From a virus, in IMG/VR virus record IMGVR_UViG_3300005289_000603, positions 1 through 35,175 of that record: DNA of 35,175 nucleotides, one strand, 5' to 3'. Under the pieces are notes generated by a model that had not been told where the DNA came from, searched no databases, and saw only the letters and a program-made list of their open reading frames with translations. The translations under genes and the position numbers were made by a program. Below are positions 1 to 28,482 of this stretch, one piece after another. Positions within the stretch are counted from its first letter, which is position 1; each line of letters begins with the position of its first letter.

Positions 1-1359
1 ATGAACAGCTTTGAATTTACAACACCATCATTACACAAAGGTAAGGATAAGTGGCTAATCAGATACACTTTAACTGTTAATGGAAAGTCAGATTATCGGA
101 AAGAAGCTGGTACAACATATCCAGAGGTAAGAGCCACACTAAACTCTAAAGATTTCAAAGTTGATGGGGTATTTCCAATTGAAATAGTTACAAATGGTAA
201 AAAGAAATATGTACCAGAATCTGGTAAAAATGCATACAAGAAAAGAGAACAATTAGCAGAAAAAATTATTCTACTACTTACAGGTGAACTTGAAGACGGG
301 ATTGACCCTGAAAAAAGTAAAGCGGGTTATCAAGCTATTGCCCAAAAGCAATTGGAAGAATCTAAAGAATGGAGCATTGAAAAGAATTTAGAATTTTACT
401 ATAAAAAAATTAATATTTATTCTAACATTTCAGAAAGAAAAAAAGATAGTGCCTATAATCTTAAAACGTTTTTCAAAAATCAATTTGTTGGACACTTTGA
501 GGAACATAATAAGGAATTAGTAAATGATATCAGGTTAATTACTAAAAAGCATATTAGGGATTATTTGGATTATTATTATGAACATCCAGACCCTAAAATT
601 AAATGGGCTTATAGAACTACGAACACCCGTAAAGGTTGGATTTCTGCTTTCTTCAATAAATTAGTTGAATATGAAATTTTGACCGTAAATCCAGCAGATA
701 ACATTTTAGGGAAAGAAGCAGATGGTTCTGGAAGGGGAGATTATGAAATATTTAGCAAAGAAGAGGTTGGTATAATTTTCAAAGAACTTGAATCAGGAAA
801 ATTAGCTAACAAAAGGATGGAAGCTTTTGGTAAGATTCTGTATTATGCCTACATCCGTAAAGCAGAGATGAGAAGAATTAGAATGAAGCACATTGATTTA
901 CCCGCTCGTAAGTTTAGGATGACAGCCGACATATCAAAGAAAACAAACAATGGTAAAAAGTACCCTGTATTAATTAATCAATTATTACAACCTGCAATAG
1001 AGCAATGGATTGAAAAGAAAGGAATTGATGTAACAGATGATGAAGCTTTACTATTTCCAAATCCTAACGGATTTACATTGAGTAAAAACTTTTTGGATAA
1101 AACTTGGAATAATTTGTTGGATGCCTTGCGATTGGAACACCCTAATTTATTCAAGAAAAAGAACCAGACAATTTATAGCCTAAAATCATCTGGTGTAACT
1201 CATCTATTTTACAACAATAAAAATAGACCTGATGTTATTAAATTTATTCAACAACAATGTAGGCATCAAAATTCTAACACTACTGAGATTTATTTGAAAA
1301 GCTTAGATTGTAACATTGAGGAAGAAAGCAATTTTAGTTTTTTTCAAGCAGAGCATTAA
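1..1359 (+). CDS. int: Tyrosine-type site-specific integrase
   Basis: Tyrosine recombinase of 452 residues that would integrate and excise the phage genome. The N-terminal third looks like an arm-binding and SAM-like core-binding region. The catalytic domain covers about residues 250-435. Visible catalytic positions are R286 (box I, in YIRKAEM), K395 at the position normally held by the box II Arg (YSLKSS instead of HxLRH), H422 (CRHQNSNTT) and nucleophile Y431, nine residues after H422 as usual. The Lys-for-Arg change is something I associate with Bacteroidetes mobile-element integrases, so the enzyme is probably active. The first base of the window is its ATG, so its promoter and any att site are not visible. 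Its last 26 bases overlap the convergent gene at 1334-1615. The family call is firm; the integration target is unknown. Confidence 0.93.
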   Translation: MNSFEFTTPSLHKGKDKWLIRYTLTVNGKSDYRKEAGTTYPEVRATLNSKDFKVDGVFPIEIVTNGKKKYVPESGKNAYKKREQLAEKIILLLTGELEDGIDPEKSKAGYQAIAQKQLEESKEWSIEKNLEFYYKKINIYSNISERKKDSAYNLKTFFKNQFVGHFEEHNKELVNDIRLITKKHIRDYLDYYYEHPDPKIKWAYRTTNTRKGWISAFFNKLVEYEILTVNPADNILGKEADGSGRGDYEIFSKEEVGIIFKELESGKLANKRMEAFGKILYYAYIRKAEMRRIRMKHIDLPARKFRMTADISKKTNNGKKYPVLINQLLQPAIEQWIEKKGIDVTDDEALLFPNPNGFTLSKNFLDKTWNNLLDALRLEHPNLFKKKNQTIYSLKSSGVTHLFYNNKNRPDVIKFIQQQCRHQNSNTTEIYLKSLDCNIEEESNFSFFQAEH

Positions 1360-4288: not shown

Positions 4289-4777
4289 TTAGTTATTACC
4301 TGTAGTACTTATAAAATAATTCTGAATTGGAAATTCTAAAAGTGAACCTGCATACAGTAATGTCTTTCTGTTTTCTTCTTCTGACCACCCACTGTGTTTA
4401 GTCTGAATTTTAGTATCAATTGTAATAACATTAAAGTGGTCAATGTTTTTAACATAAGTTTTAATGCTTCGTGCAAATTGTTGGGCAAAGGCTAATAAGT
4501 TTTCATTGATTTTGGGATTGTTTACCTGTACCTGTAAATCTATTCTTTTGCCATTGGCAGCGCTTTGAACTCTATTTTTGATAAGATCGATACTTAACCC
4601 TGAAAAATGAACGCTATCAAATTGAAATTCCTTACGTAAGTTGTTTATAACTTCTTGCTCAGGGACGTTAAATATAATTTCTTCTTTGACATATGGGTTT
4701 TTAACATCAAGCTGACAACTTGCAATCAGTAAAATAAGTGCAGTTAAAATTCTTGGAATATATTTCTTTACGAGCAT
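4289..4777 (-). CDS. Lipoprotein, probable lysogenic-conversion factor
   Basis: 162 residues. A basic start (MLVKKYIPR) and a hydrophobic stretch run to residue 20, followed by the lipobox IAS-C with acylated Cys21, so it is a predicted lipoprotein of the cell envelope. The mature part is about 140 residues with no recognised domain, mostly polar with alternating beta-like segments (RIDLQVQVNNPKI; FNVITIDTKIQ). It is a single-gene leftward unit between the dyad at 4244-4270 and the repeat array at 4831-5178. Phage lipoproteins expressed from lysogens often alter the envelope or block superinfection; that role is inferred from type and position only. Confidence 0.7.
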   Translation of the reverse strand: MLVKKYIPRILTALILLIASCQLDVKNPYVKEEIIFNVPEQEVINNLRKEFQFDSVHFSGLSIDLIKNRVQSAANGKRIDLQVQVNNPKINENLLAFAQQFARSIKTYVKNIDHFNVITIDTKIQTKHSGWSEEENRKTLLYAGSLLEFPIQNYFISTTGNN

Positions 4778-4830: not shown

Positions 4831-5178
4831 TACGTAGTGGAGAGAAAATCTTCTCCACCTTCAATATAAAGCTTAACTATGTTGCCCTTCGGGATTGGAA
4901 GGAGATTTCTCTAATATAACTAAGGTGGAGAAGAAAGATATTCCACCTATATAAAGTAATTATAGATGGAGAAACATTAATTTTTATATATTTTTCTATT
5001 CTATATAGGTGGAGAAGATAAAATTATATTGAAGTTTCTCCACTACGTAGTAGTATTCATTTATATGCGTATTTAGGGTATAGGTAGTTAAAAGCTTGCT
5101 TTATCTCTTCTCAACATCCGAAGGATTACATCGTTGATGAGTTATTGAAGGTGGAGAAGATTTTTTCTCCACTACGTA
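4831..5178. repeat. Nested inverted-repeat / iteron array, candidate origin or partition site
   Basis: The core GTGGAGA or its complement TCTCCAC occurs seven times exactly, at 4837, 4852, 4925, 5009, 5037, 5151 and 5166. Degenerate forms occur at 4941, 4966 and 5108. The outer 35-bp blocks 4831-4865 and 5144-5178 are inverted copies of each other at 34 of 35 bases, each ending in TACGTA. An inner pair, 4942-4953 and 5002-5013, is a 12-bp inverted repeat. A shortened version of the outer block sits at 5026-5048. The array is non-coding and lies upstream of the winged-helix-like gene at 5437. Such arrays are typical of replication origins, centromere-like sites or multi-site operators. Confidence 0.75.
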
Positions 5179-5332
5179 GCAACAACAATATTTATTTCCA
5201 TTAACTACTTGATTTTTTTATTTTCCAGGGTATTCTTGTCTTAGAAGTTTTATAAAAATAAATTTCAAAAAATGAACTTTTCAGATTTTGCTTACTATTT
5301 ATTATAAAACCACAATACATTTTTTTATTTCA

Positions 5333-5371
5333 GGTGATGGGTAAAAACTACAAAATTATTTATCCATCACC
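5333..5371 (+). promoter_or_regulatory. Leader hairpin upstream of the initiator-like gene
   Basis: GGTGATGGGTAAA (5333-5345) and TTTATCCATCACC (5359-5371) form a 13-bp stem (12 Watson-Crick pairs and one G-U in RNA) around a 13-base loop. It lies 65 bases before the ATG at 5437. Two tiny frames sit in the same leader: 20 codons from the ATG at 5337 and 8 codons from the ATG at 5404. There is no T-run, so it is more likely a translational or attenuation element than a terminator. The stretch 5181-5332 is AT-rich and otherwise featureless. Confidence 0.5.
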
Positions 5372-5436
5372 ATTAGCTTTTTGTAGGGCTAAGATTTAAA
5401 GAAATGGATAATGAGCTAATAAAGAAATAAAACAAA

Positions 5437-6378
5437 ATGTTAAACCAAAAAAACAAAAACTTGGTGGTGCTTAATACACCTGCAAATTTCGATTTATCAA
5501 TTTTTGATAATATTAAAAAAACTGAAAATTATCATAAGGTAATATTCCTGATTAATCAGATTGATCATTTTACAAATTCCAAAGGGGTTTTTAAAATCAA
5601 TAAAAAAGCATACTACCAGATGCTAGGGATTAACAATAGTCAATTGAATAAGCTATTAGGTTTACTAATCAATGAAGCAAAATTAGTTGAGCATTTATAT
5701 ACAGGCAATAGCTTTACAGGTAGGCTCTCCGAGTACAAATCTATAGAACCATTTGATATCGAAACAAGTATTAAACATCAGTATGATGTAACTGATCGCA
5801 AATGTCCAGAGTTTATTAAAAAATGGGTAGCTAATGATTATAGAGTATTACCAACTGAAAAAAGTAGTTATGTGAAACCTGATAAAGAAGCTAAAATTAA
5901 ATCAAAATCTGATTCCAATTTAATAAAACAATTACAGGTACAGAATGAGCAATTGATAGCTGAAATAGCCTCTCTAAAGGCTCAATTATCCAATTCCAAT
6001 ATAAGTATTGGTGAAGTTGATGCGGTGTCTGTAGTAGTCTCTAATGACGAATTTAAATCTGCTAAATCTGATAATAAATTTAATAAGAATACACCTGATG
6101 TTAACATGTGCGAAGCACATTTAAACATTGAGAACGAAGAGAAAGCAAATAATAATTTGGATGTGTATACACTGAAACTTACTACCAAAACTTATTATTT
6201 CATGAATCATAAAATAATCCTAAATGCAACTACAGATGAAGATGATGAAGCTATATTGATAAATAAATTGCAGGATCATAAAGATGGTGATGATCAATCT
6301 TTAGTGTACAATGGGAAAACTATAAAATTTAATAAGGGGAGAGTTGCAAATGAAATCATGATACAATTAGTCGCATGA
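5437..6378 (+). CDS. Winged-helix-like DNA-binding protein, possible replication initiator
   Basis: 313 residues. Residues about 28-103 look like a winged-helix domain: a first helix (NYHKVIFLINQIDHF), then KINKKAYYQMLGINNSQLNKLLGLLINEAKL as helix-turn-helix, then a short wing. Residues about 161-187 form a coiled coil (LIKQLQVQNEQLIAEIASL) that could make it a dimer. Then comes a low-complexity linker and a separate C-terminal beta-rich domain (about 240-313). The layout resembles plasmid-type initiators and DnaD/RepA-like proteins, but I recognise no exact family. The upstream array of inverted GTGGAGA repeats is the natural candidate for its binding site. A transcription regulator is the main alternative. 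Confidence 0.6.
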   Translation: MLNQKNKNLVVLNTPANFDLSIFDNIKKTENYHKVIFLINQIDHFTNSKGVFKINKKAYYQMLGINNSQLNKLLGLLINEAKLVEHLYTGNSFTGRLSEYKSIEPFDIETSIKHQYDVTDRKCPEFIKKWVANDYRVLPTEKSSYVKPDKEAKIKSKSDSNLIKQLQVQNEQLIAEIASLKAQLSNSNISIGEVDAVSVVVSNDEFKSAKSDNKFNKNTPDVNMCEAHLNIENEEKANNNLDVYTLKLTTKTYYFMNHKIILNATTDEDDEAILINKLQDHKDGDDQSLVYNGKTIKFNKGRVANEIMIQLVA

Positions 6379-9575: not shown

Positions 9576-9944
9576 ATGAAAAATATAAAAGAATACAAAA
9601 ACCTAAGAAAATATTTAGCTGACCTGCAATTAAACAGATTGGAATTAATAACAGATTTTGTAATATATGAATATCAGATTGATAGAGGTGAGCTATTCAG
9701 CAGAACAAGGAATAGAACCATCTCAGAAGCAAGAAGAAAAATTGCATTTCTTGCTCGTATGTTTTACAATATTGAGGGTAAAATTATAGGAAAATATTTA
9801 AATGTCATTGATGTTTGGGCATCAACACTAATATATGATGCGTGGGATTTCTGCTTGGTGGATAAGACTTATTATGAAGAAATTCAGAAATTAATGGTGA
9901 AGCTCCAGATGTACCATAATGTATCATTGAAGCCATTAATTTAA
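9576..9944 (+). CDS. DnaA domain IV-like helix-turn-helix protein
   Basis: 122 residues. From about residue 24 the sequence follows the pattern of the DNA-binding domain IV of DnaA: FVIYEYQIDRGELFSRTRNR, then ISEARRKIAFLARMF, then KIIGKYLNVIDVWASTLIYDAW, then a C-terminal helix. The basic loop SRTRNR, the AR of the next helix and the IG before the recognition helix all line up with DnaA. The DHTTV signature is replaced by DVWAST. AAA+ and DnaB-loading domains are absent, so it cannot act as a full initiator. It may bind DnaA-box-like sites, compete with host DnaA, or mark the phage origin. The comparison is by eye. Confidence 0.6.
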   Translation: MKNIKEYKNLRKYLADLQLNRLELITDFVIYEYQIDRGELFSRTRNRTISEARRKIAFLARMFYNIEGKIIGKYLNVIDVWASTLIYDAWDFCLVDKTYYEEIQKLMVKLQMYHNVSLKPLI

Positions 9945-10191: not shown

Positions 10192-10482
10192 TTATTTAAA
10201 ATCTTCTCCTTGTATATAGTCATAGTTGACAAATTGAGTTGCAAACAATCTCTCAACAGTGGCTGAATTTTCCTTTGCTACCTTCAATAGGTCAGCTTTG
10301 GCAGTAGCGGATGTAATGTTCTTTTTCCAAAGAGATGTATTTGGAAGGAAATTTTTTACTGTCGAACCTGGAACAAGAAAGTAGTCAAAGTATCCAAGTT
10401 TTTTCATTCCATCTTTAACTACTTTATTTTTTGCTTCACCTGTTAAAGGAGTTTTGATGTCATATGTAATTAATATGTGCAT
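10192..10482 (-). CDS. Small ferredoxin-fold protein, distantly Cas2/SinR-like
   Basis: 96 residues. The start HILITYDIKTPL resembles the first strand and catalytic-type Asp of the Cas2/VapD/SinR group (hydrophobic strand followed by YDI). A helix (KNKVVKDGMKKLGYFDYFL), a strand, and then LLKVAKENSATVERLFATQFVNYDYI follow. I see no CRISPR array or other Cas genes, so this is not a CRISPR component. Family membership is a guess from the first strand and overall size. It lies 9 bases upstream of the DUF551-like gene. Confidence 0.45.
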   Translation of the reverse strand: MHILITYDIKTPLTGEAKNKVVKDGMKKLGYFDYFLVPGSTVKNFLPNTSLWKKNITSATAKADLLKVAKENSATVERLFATQFVNYDYIQGEDFK

Positions 10483-25248: not shown

Positions 25249-28200
25249 ATGCAAAGGAACATTTTTGCAGGATCAGAGTTCTTGCTATACAATATTGATA
25301 ACGAACCAGTAGCATATTCAAGGAATTGTGCTTTAAAGATCAATCAAAGCCTAACTGATGTAACTACTAAGGATAGTCAATCTTGGACTGAATTAATGGT
25401 CGGTATTAAAGATTGGGGTATTGAATTCGAGGGGTTAATGAGTTCCAATAGTGGCTTCACTCAAAATTACTTCATCAATAAGTACAAAAACAATGAGCCA
25501 TTTTTTATCAGATTCGGAGTAATTCAAGAGAATTATACTTATGCTTATTATGGTGAAGTAGCTATTGCATCTATTGATCTTACTGCTCAAATGGATGAAG
25601 TTTCAACTTATTCAGGTTCATTAAAGGGTATCGGGAAACTATTGCCAATTGATGAAGGTACACCAGAGCAAAATGGATATCTTAAAACTGAAACTGATCC
25701 TGTTTTTAGAGGGTCACCAGCTTTTAATATTACCGATATAGATAAAGAGAAATGGAATGAAGCCAACAACAAGGTTGTCAAAGAAATTCAATTCATTACT
25801 ACTGGCAACACTACAACATTGAAGATTAAATTCAATGATGGTAACATATATAGTGCGCCATTTCTAAACAACGGTACAGGGTCAGTTGATCTATCAGGAT
25901 ATTATACCAAAAACCAATCAGATGAATTAATTGCAGTTGCTCAGGTAGCTGCGGATAATGCAAACACCTTATTATATAATATAGCTAATGATTCAAAATT
26001 AACTCCAAATGAAAAAATCAATGTTCTAAAGGAATGGTTAATTATCCAAGATGAAAAACCTAAACTTGTTCAACAGGCTGTTATTTTCGGGGTTCAAACA
26101 TTGGATTATGATGTTAGCTATGTTGATCTCGAATTATATGTTGAACCGCTATTGTATTCAATGAATACCACCGATGATATAGCAGGATATGATTTCAGGA
26201 ATACATTCAGAGCATACTATGATGAGAAAATAAAGTTGCTTAAAGCAATTGCAGAAGCAAGTAAATTCTACACCGATGCGGAAATTGAAGCAATCACTAT
26301 TGGAAATAGAAATTATCATTTAAAAGGTGATAAGACAGTATTAGTATCCCAAACCAGCAATCAAACATTACAAAGCGGTAACTATCCAGTCAATTCAGAA
26401 ATGGCGTTATCATTCTATGCCAGGTCAATTGATGGTGCAAATCGTTTATTTCTTCAATTTGATGATTCAGATGAAAAGGAATTCAATGTTTCAAATGATT
26501 GGATCAGATATACCTGCATTCTTCATACTACAGATTTACCGATTCTGTACGCTAGGCTAGGAGAAGGTATTAGCATGATGAATGTTAGTGTGAAAAAGGG
26601 ATTCCCGTATAAATTTCCATCAAAATTTGGCTCGCAAGCTCCCATATCTGGTATTGAGATGAAAAATATCATGGTAGTTAAAGGGAATAAGTGGACTGAT
26701 TTTGTCCCCGCACCTGAGGACTTTTATGACCTGATCAATAAAGCAAAAACCGATGCTACACTAGCGTCCAAGAGCTATTCAGATGCACAGGATTCATTAA
26801 ACAAGACATTAGGTGAAGCATATGCTGATGGTCTAATCACAGAATTAGAGCAAGTAACCATTGACCTTGCTGAATCCAATTTAGCAACTGCAAAGCAATA
26901 TGCCGATGTACAAGCGTTAAATGCTAAGGTACTTGCTAATGCCTATGCAGATGGTAAGATAACGGACATTGAGAACCAGATTATTGATGCCAGTGAAGAT
27001 AATATAATTGCTTCCAAAGCCTATACAGATGCCCAAAGGTCGCTAAGCGAAATCACCCTAAAAGCATATACAGATGGGGTTATAGACAGTACAGAGGCAG
27101 CATTAATCCAGAATGCTAACAATAATTTAGCAACTGCAAAGCAATATGCCGATGCTCAGGATTTATATACTAAAACTCTTTCAGATGCTTATGCAGATCA
27201 AAAGATTAGCACAGAAGAGCAAGCGAGGATCAATGCGGTACAAGCATCATTAGATGCAGCTAAAGCATATACAGAAGCACAAAGAGTATTAAGCGAAACC
27301 ATTACAAAAGCTTATGCTGATGGTGTTGTAAGTGATGAAGAAGCACGTGCAATAGCAGATGCTCAGGCTAAATTAAATCTCGCTAAAGCTTATGCTGATC
27401 AAAAGAATCTTGATTTAAAAAATGAATTAGTTGATTATGTAGATCAGTCAATTATTGACAAAGCAAATGAAATAATTGCTGATACTACAGACTTAATTAA
27501 TGTTGCTAATACTGCAACCTTACAAGCAGCAGAAACAGATGCAGAGAATAAAGCTAATGCAGCAAAAGCAGCAGCTATTGTTAGTGCAAACACATATGCA
27601 GCAGCTCAAAGAGTATTAGCCGAAACTACATCAGCAGCTTATGCCGATGGTGTAGTTACAACAGAAGAGCAAGCAAGAATTACACAAGCTGCTAACAATC
27701 TGCAAGCAGCAAAGGATGATTCAACAGTAAAAGCTAATGCTGCAGCAGCATATGGTATAGCTGCTACAAACTTGCATAATGCGTTGGTTGGCAATCTTAG
27801 GTCTTTAGCTTATGAGGATGTAGTGGAGGTTTCAAAACTTGGAAGTACAATAGTAACTGGTGGTTTTATTAAGACCTCATTACTTGATGCTAATTACATT
27901 AAATCTGATATTATCACATCAACATATATTAATTCACTGAGCATTTCAGCAAGTACAATTAGTGCTACTACTGGTACAATTGGGGGCTGGGGCATTGATT
28001 CAACAAGTTTGAAATCTGGTACTTTAACAAGTAATTTCCTTCAAATCAATTCTGGTTCTGATCCTTACATATTTATGAAAAATGCTGATCAGGTTACGGG
28101 TACAACTGATTATAGTCAAATCACACCTAAGAGTGCTTTTTTTTCATCCAAGGGAGTATCCACTCCAACATCATACAATAATGTTAGTGCAGTAGGCGCA

Positions 28201-28482
28201 TTCAAATTAAACGATCATACCTCAGATAGTGTAACCCATACAGCAATGTATTTGAAAGCACCTTCCAATGGTTTATCTCTATTCTCGGAAGGTTCTGCTT
28301 TAATGGAGGGAGGAAATTTAACATTGAATTTTGATTCAATTTTTGTTAACGGATTACAAGGAGCAACTGGTGGTGTGATGGTAATTGATTATGGTGTTGG
28401 AGGATATTACGGGATGTATGTAAAAAATGGAATTGTTGTAAAAATTGGAATTCTAAATAAAACCCTATATCCACCAGTCTAG
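25249..28482 (+). CDS. Tail-tube domain fused to a long tail fibre
   Basis: 1077 residues. Residues 1-135 are clearly paralogous to the tail tube protein encoded at 28595-29008: VAYSRNCALKINQSL against IAYSRNCSLALSVNL, both followed by a W-x-E pair, a W-x-I segment, and GSLKGIGKL against LSLKGSGKL. After a linker come a helical region (about 220-350), a jelly-roll-like domain (about 355-490), then five 41-residue repeats with A-Y-x-D-G at 524, 565, 606, 647 (as AYADQ) and 688, a sixth at 797, and a typical fibre C-terminus (TIVTGGFIKTSLLDANYI; GTIGGWGID). It may be a minor tube subunit that carries side fibres. Confidence 0.85.
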   Translation: MQRNIFAGSEFLLYNIDNEPVAYSRNCALKINQSLTDVTTKDSQSWTELMVGIKDWGIEFEGLMSSNSGFTQNYFINKYKNNEPFFIRFGVIQENYTYAYYGEVAIASIDLTAQMDEVSTYSGSLKGIGKLLPIDEGTPEQNGYLKTETDPVFRGSPAFNITDIDKEKWNEANNKVVKEIQFITTGNTTTLKIKFNDGNIYSAPFLNNGTGSVDLSGYYTKNQSDELIAVAQVAADNANTLLYNIANDSKLTPNEKINVLKEWLIIQDEKPKLVQQAVIFGVQTLDYDVSYVDLELYVEPLLYSMNTTDDIAGYDFRNTFRAYYDEKIKLLKAIAEASKFYTDAEIEAITIGNRNYHLKGDKTVLVSQTSNQTLQSGNYPVNSEMALSFYARSIDGANRLFLQFDDSDEKEFNVSNDWIRYTCILHTTDLPILYARLGEGISMMNVSVKKGFPYKFPSKFGSQAPISGIEMKNIMVVKGNKWTDFVPAPEDFYDLINKAKTDATLASKSYSDAQDSLNKTLGEAYADGLITELEQVTIDLAESNLATAKQYADVQALNAKVLANAYADGKITDIENQIIDASEDNIIASKAYTDAQRSLSEITLKAYTDGVIDSTEAALIQNANNNLATAKQYADAQDLYTKTLSDAYADQKISTEEQARINAVQASLDAAKAYTEAQRVLSETITKAYADGVVSDEEARAIADAQAKLNLAKAYADQKNLDLKNELVDYVDQSIIDKANEIIADTTDLINVANTATLQAAETDAENKANAAKAAAIVSANTYAAAQRVLAETTSAAYADGVVTTEEQARITQAANNLQAAKDDSTVKANAAAAYGIAATNLHNALVGNLRSLAYEDVVEVSKLGSTIVTGGFIKTSLLDANYIKSDIITSTYINSLSISASTISATTGTIGGWGIDSTSLKSGTLTSNFLQINSGSDPYIFMKNADQVTGTTDYSQITPKSAFFSSKGVSTPTSYNNVSAVGAFKLNDHTSDSVTHTAMYLKAPSNGLSLFSEGSALMEGGNLTLNFDSIFVNGLQGATGGVMVIDYGVGGYYGMYVKNGIVVKIGILNKTLYPPV
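26818..27440 (+). repeat. Five 123-bp (41-residue) tandem repeats in the fibre gene
   Basis: The motif coding for AYADG/AYTDG/AYADQ starts at 26818, 26941, 27064, 27187 and 27310, exactly 123 bases apart. A 31-base segment is repeated without change at 26878-26908 and 27124-27154, two units apart, which suggests recent duplication or gene conversion. A further copy of the motif occurs out of register at 27637. Confidence 0.8.

Follow-up and report, generated by a model that had tools for sequence, protein, structure and literature searches.

An iteron-like inverted-repeat array and a structured leader mark a candidate replication module beside a winged-helix gene in a Bacteroidota temperate phage

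The window analysed here is the whole of the 35,175-base IMG/VR virus record IMGVR_UViG_3300005289_000603, the terminase of which has relatives in Pedobacter prophages and the hosts of which look like soil bacteria of that genus. Its early region carries, in order, a large inverted-repeat array, a promoter-like site, a structured leader and a gene for a winged-helix protein (Table 1). No helicase, primase or polymerase is recognisable among the proteins encoded by the phage, and no replication gene is recognised besides the candidate initiator at 5437-6378. GC skew of the record is uninformative on an origin. The DnaA box TTWTNCACA is absent from the array when up to one mismatch is allowed, and such boxes fall below chance expectation across the record; a DnaA box is common in iteron-type origins, though not universal. 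Further along, a 122-aa protein (9576-9944) has a helix-turn-helix like that of DnaA domain IV (PF08299, below cut-off); it is kept in sister phages and is perhaps an early or late regulator, and a 96-aa protein (10192-10482) recalls SinR/Cas2-like small proteins by eye, with no family match.

Table 1. Features of the array, leader and neighbouring gene in the window.
Feature	Position	Strand	Basis or remark
Iteron-type inverted-repeat array (candidate origin/initiator-binding region)	4831-5178		repeat counts, shuffles
Left outer arm, with dyad GTGGAGA-N8-TCTCCAC at 4837-4858	4831-4866	+	35/36 inverted match to 5143-5178
Degenerate dyad GTGGAGA-N8-ATTCCAC	4925-4946		sequence, site list
Half site	4965-4973
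Wider dyad GTGGAGA...TCTCCAC	5009-5043		sequence; with 5035-5050 forms the third, shortened outer block
Third, shortened outer block	5035-5050		TTTCTCCACTACGTAG
Right outer arm, with dyad at 5151-5172	5143-5178	-	inverted match to left arm
Promoter-like CTTGAT-spacer-TATTCTTG, Bacteroidetes type	5208-5238	+	by eye; between array and leader
Leader hairpin 1, 13-bp stem, loop AACTACAAAATTA (5346-5358)	5333-5371	+	stem search
Leader hairpin 2, loop TTTTGTAG (5379-5386)	5373-5392	+	loop-pairing search
AGCTAA, which could replace the 3' arm of hairpin 2 (5' arm unchanged, loop lengthened)	5414-5419	+	by eye
Candidate replication initiator, 313 aa	5437-6378	+	AlphaFold2, homologues, winged-helix fold search
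Initiator domains: winged helix, coiled coil, C-terminal beta domain	residues 1-143, 159-186, 244-312		AlphaFold2

Each of the seven exact GTGGAGA/TCTCCAC cores in the record falls within 4837-5172, in both orientations as the initial annotation had it, where 2.4 would be expected in the whole record. The cores pair as dyads directed toward an A/T tract, mostly in the form GTGGAGA-N8-TCTCCAC (7-8-7 bp), and GTGGAGA-GAAAATCT-TCTCCAC and GTGGAGA-AGATTTTT-TCTCCAC are semi-palindromic iterons converging on such a tract. The outer arms, initially described as inverted at 34 of 35 positions, match at 35 of 36 with an ungapped score of 33. The highest score reached is 18 among 40 dinucleotide shuffles and 22 among 51 further equal-sized stretches of the phage, and these comparisons bear out the view that the array is too ordered for chance. 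The shortened third copy of the outer block is found as annotated; the inner inverted pair is also present, though as 17 nt matching at 88% (4942-4958/4997-5013) and not as exactly 12. In the 700 bp 5' of the gene, the best 8-mer, from the motif GGTGGAGAA, reaches an enrichment of 10.0 (-log10 P), compared with at most 4.2 in 30 shuffles.

The 5437-6378 protein draws only chance-level matches from Pfam, PHROGs and NCBIfam. AlphaFold2 predicts a confident winged helix (pTM 0.83) and, together with the coiled coil, this agrees with the domain layout first proposed from the sequence. A PDB fold search with the predicted winged helix places 4pql first (E 0.01), presumably from the same set of RepA_N initiator structures as two further matches, 5kbj and 4pt7. 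The latter, both staphylococcal RepA_N initiators (PMC7145576), stand in the top 20 of a search in which no match falls below E 0.001. PF06970 (RepA_N) matches no member of the homologue set in Pfam and nothing in the record at E values up to 10. The predicted winged helix appears most like, if weakly, those of RepA_N plasmid initiators; as far as anatomy tells the protein is RepA_N initiator-like, and because the fold E-values are weak and PF06970 is without a match, membership of RepA_N is not claimed.

A profile search of 401 Sphingobacteriaceae genomes yields ten full-length homologues in all (L042-L051), with 17-32% identity to the window protein over the alignment; two relatives come from the 147 genomes searched in Pedobacter, the genus of G001. 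One further candidate, L052, is a false positive that is RecN-like by translation. A short relative, L066, encodes a 96-aa homologue (1477-1767) from a probably truncated or frameshifted gene with CTGTGGTC repeats upstream at multiples of 11 bp. Searches of viral contigs, phages and plasmids return no direct homologue of the window protein, none for L045 or L049 used as queries, and no homologue on a plasmid; a class-wide search gave weak partial matches only, which were left out.

Looking for the array in relatives that keep the gene had been suggested in the initial annotation, and repeats are present upstream in nine of the ten homologues, each with its own motif, L044 alone being without a clear array. 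When the best repeated 8-mer of the upstream 700 bp is compared with 30 shuffles, the window and six homologues exceed every shuffle: L045 (AGGTGGGGT), L046 (TATGTACG), L047 (TGTGGTAC), L048 (ATGTAGGAG), L049 (GGTGGTAC) and L051 (GTGGTGAT). The remaining three have other patterns: L042, which fails the k-mer test, has perfectly inverted arms of 50 nt separated by 223 nt, and L043 and L050 have weaker repeats (39-nt direct repeats; 12-bp tandem copies). A 12-bp spacing recurs in several homologue arrays, and the L048 array, made of tandem copies as well as dyads, forms a bridge between the tandem arrays and the mirrored one of the window. When 700-bp stretches of the surrounding 22-40 kb are ranked by repeat enrichment, the array comes within the first three in 7 of 11 contexts, the ranks above it being other repeats; the strongest 8-mer repeat of the window record sits in the gene for a probable 1077-aa tail protein with repeated AYADG-type units (25249-28482). 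The consensus iterons, chosen by hand as strings, resemble one another more than shuffled ones do (4.29 vs 3.54, sd 0.14). The two closest homologue pairs have motifs in common, and across homologues the correlation of iteron with protein similarity is not significant (r 0.19, p 0.11).

Several homologues also have a similar promoter-like sequence, ACTTGAC/T...TAnnnTTTG, identified by eye. The structured leader that follows in the window (5333-5419) had gone unremarked in the initial annotation. In the window, the hairpin 2 loop is the full complement of CTACAAAA in the loop of hairpin 1, and the pair at 5333-5392 is the best such structure on either strand of the record. A hairpin pair with complementary loops occurs in 9 of 11 leaders, and with L066 included 10 of 12 have a pair that outscores 99 or more of 100 shuffles; a clear structure is missing in L051, which does not reach that score, and in L044, which has none. 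The paired loops differ from phage to phage (GTACCA/TGGTAC, TCATTCCA/TGGAATGA, CTTCCA/TGGAAG, GTTTCCA/TGGAAAC, TTCTCA/TGAGAA), and alternative arms of the AGCTAA kind are seen by eye in the homologues that have the leader. As the MAFFT alignment places some leaders off by a base, loops were permuted against tails in place of a column-covariation test. Hairpin 1 was picked in most leaders on stem strength alone, before pairing was looked at. With each hairpin 1 loop set against its own 60-nt downstream tail, the leaders score 215, with a permuted mean of 143 (sd 10) and 0 of 20,000 permutations as high. A second, distinct segment complementary to the loop lies near the start codon in L045-L050 (8 of 20,000 permutations). 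Rfam covariance models, including that of the C4 antisense RNA, give no relevant match. The leader is very likely a real conserved structure, and the divergence of its loops with pairing kept, together with the second segment, implies RNA control of initiator synthesis, which we regard as rather likely.

In its phage context the module is also swapped with other replication-type genes. Sister phages have the terminase, small terminase and downstream genes in common with the window and carry other proteins in the initiator slot: BT4734/VirE-like proteins in L004 (sub-threshold) and L005 (above cut-off), and in L006 a large protein whose winged helix is related to that of the window protein (hhalign 91%, E 1e-6). 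The latter (L006:2892-4475), with L063, L064 and L065, makes up a family of 417-553 aa in which D..N.Q and HDA/HDS-like motifs are conserved and, by eye, resemble those of polymerases; the family has no Pfam or PDB match. No array is found beside the slot genes of L004, L005 and L006 or beside three relatives of the L006 protein (of these three sister phages, the k-mer test took in L004 and L006). The window-type module has different terminases as neighbours in G294 and G120, usually lies 2-3 kb after an integrase, and the homologues lie in integrase-bearing prophage contexts. The recurring module is a repeat array, a promoter-like site, a structured leader and a winged-helix/coiled-coil gene. 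In the G125 element, the initiator homologue is followed directly by SIR2-like and HerA-like genes (L081:3365-6645), a pairing known from defence systems, and this element may be a satellite.

In the window and its homologues, several repeat copies adjoin a gene for which a role in replication is presumed, an arrangement best compared with the RepA_N replicons (pSK41/pTZ2162, and RepA of the Vibrio phage satellite PLE). These have a protein of about 315 aa with a winged helix at its N-terminus and a C-terminal domain that varies, an initiator that in PLE belongs to an integrating phage-related element, and semi-palindromic iterons, typically dyads with inverted halves converging on an A/T tract (PMC7145576). 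The window differs in having no PF06970 sequence match, a coiled coil predicted between the protein domains, and a much larger, nested and mirrored array. In staphylococcal RepA_N plasmids the initiator message is under RNA control (PMC5703833, PMC7145576, PMC8263062), although the pSK41 antisense target is, by its description, unlike the window leader. Closer to the leader are the RepZ-type plasmids IncI, IncB and IncK (pseudoknot and RNAI), in which a leader loop pairs downstream and governs initiator translation (PMC10724649), whereas the window would form a kiss between two neighbouring hairpin loops, has no RNAI gene shown, and has an unrelated initiator and origin. The C4 antisense RNA of phages P1 and P7 is likewise a hairpin upstream of loop-complementary segments in the same transcript (PMC5320573), but its target is an antirepressor and not a putative initiator, and the window leader has neither an Rfam match nor evidence of processing. 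SGI1 is an integrative element with a rep gene beside iterons (PMC7433901); these are 17-bp direct repeats downstream of rep, unlike those of the window.

The initial annotation had left open whether the array is an origin, a centromere or a multi-site operator, and comparison favours the origin, with repeats in nine of the ten homologues and none beside the other slot genes. The array is probably an iteron-type replication origin, with the 5437-6378 protein as its initiator in a RepA_N-like layout, the protein not being a RepA_N member by sequence. That it serves only as an operator, through which a winged-helix regulator controls its own promoter or the divergent gene at 4289-4777, is unlikely: the array does lie just 5' of a promoter-like site between divergent genes, and winged helices are common in regulators, with several of the fold matches ArsR/MarR-type, but arrays of 300 bp with 6-9 sites are large for this role, and initiators are also among the best fold matches. 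Sister phages moreover have other replication-type proteins in the slot, the phage has no other recognised replication gene, and initiators typically come with a regulated leader. The array could still act as an operator too, autoregulation being frequent among initiators.

Much less probable is a centromere for a ParR/ParB-like protein. Inverted-repeat arrays beside a DNA-binding gene do occur at partition loci, but ten early-region proteins, not all small ORFs among them, include no partition ATPase, and the integrase-bearing prophage contexts of the homologues need no partition, so that the plasmid-like partition site put forward earlier finds nothing in its support. An inserted miniature transposon with terminal inverted repeats ending in TACGTA, as the near-perfect terminal arms and the TA-containing palindrome at either end might indicate, is less probable still, as the record contains no second copy, a search of viral contigs for the dyad-plus-TACGTA pattern is empty, and L042 and other homologues have arrays of different sequence at the same place.

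For the origin and its initiator, we infer DNA binding, origin activity, host recruitment and RNA control. The winged helix would bind the GTGGAGA dyads as a dimer, with the coiled coil dimerising the initiator, and the variable C-terminal domain may recruit host replication proteins, as expected of a phage without a recognisable helicase, primase or polymerase. The structured 5' leader would limit initiator synthesis, the hairpin 1 loop kissing that of hairpin 2 or, in many relatives, pairing next to the start codon. Given these alternative pairings, the RNA may switch states or respond in trans to hairpin-1 RNA. It is conceivable, as a tentative extension, that these elements form a class of replicon not described before, carried by temperate phages of Bacteroidota. 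The leader hairpin would then act on two segments of the initiator message, either in cis or, after processing, as an RNA in trans, and its fast-changing loop would set replication control and superinfection immunity of the incompatibility type for each phage.

The literature searched says little about how temperate phages of Bacteroidota initiate replication, and the kissing-hairpin switch proposed for the leader is previously unrecognised. An unnamed initiator family with recognisable origins would make origins findable by architecture and not by sequence, and could be a source of replicons on which to build genetic tools for Sphingobacteriaceae. The leader would provide a testable case of RNA-controlled phage replication in which loops diversify while their pairing is kept.
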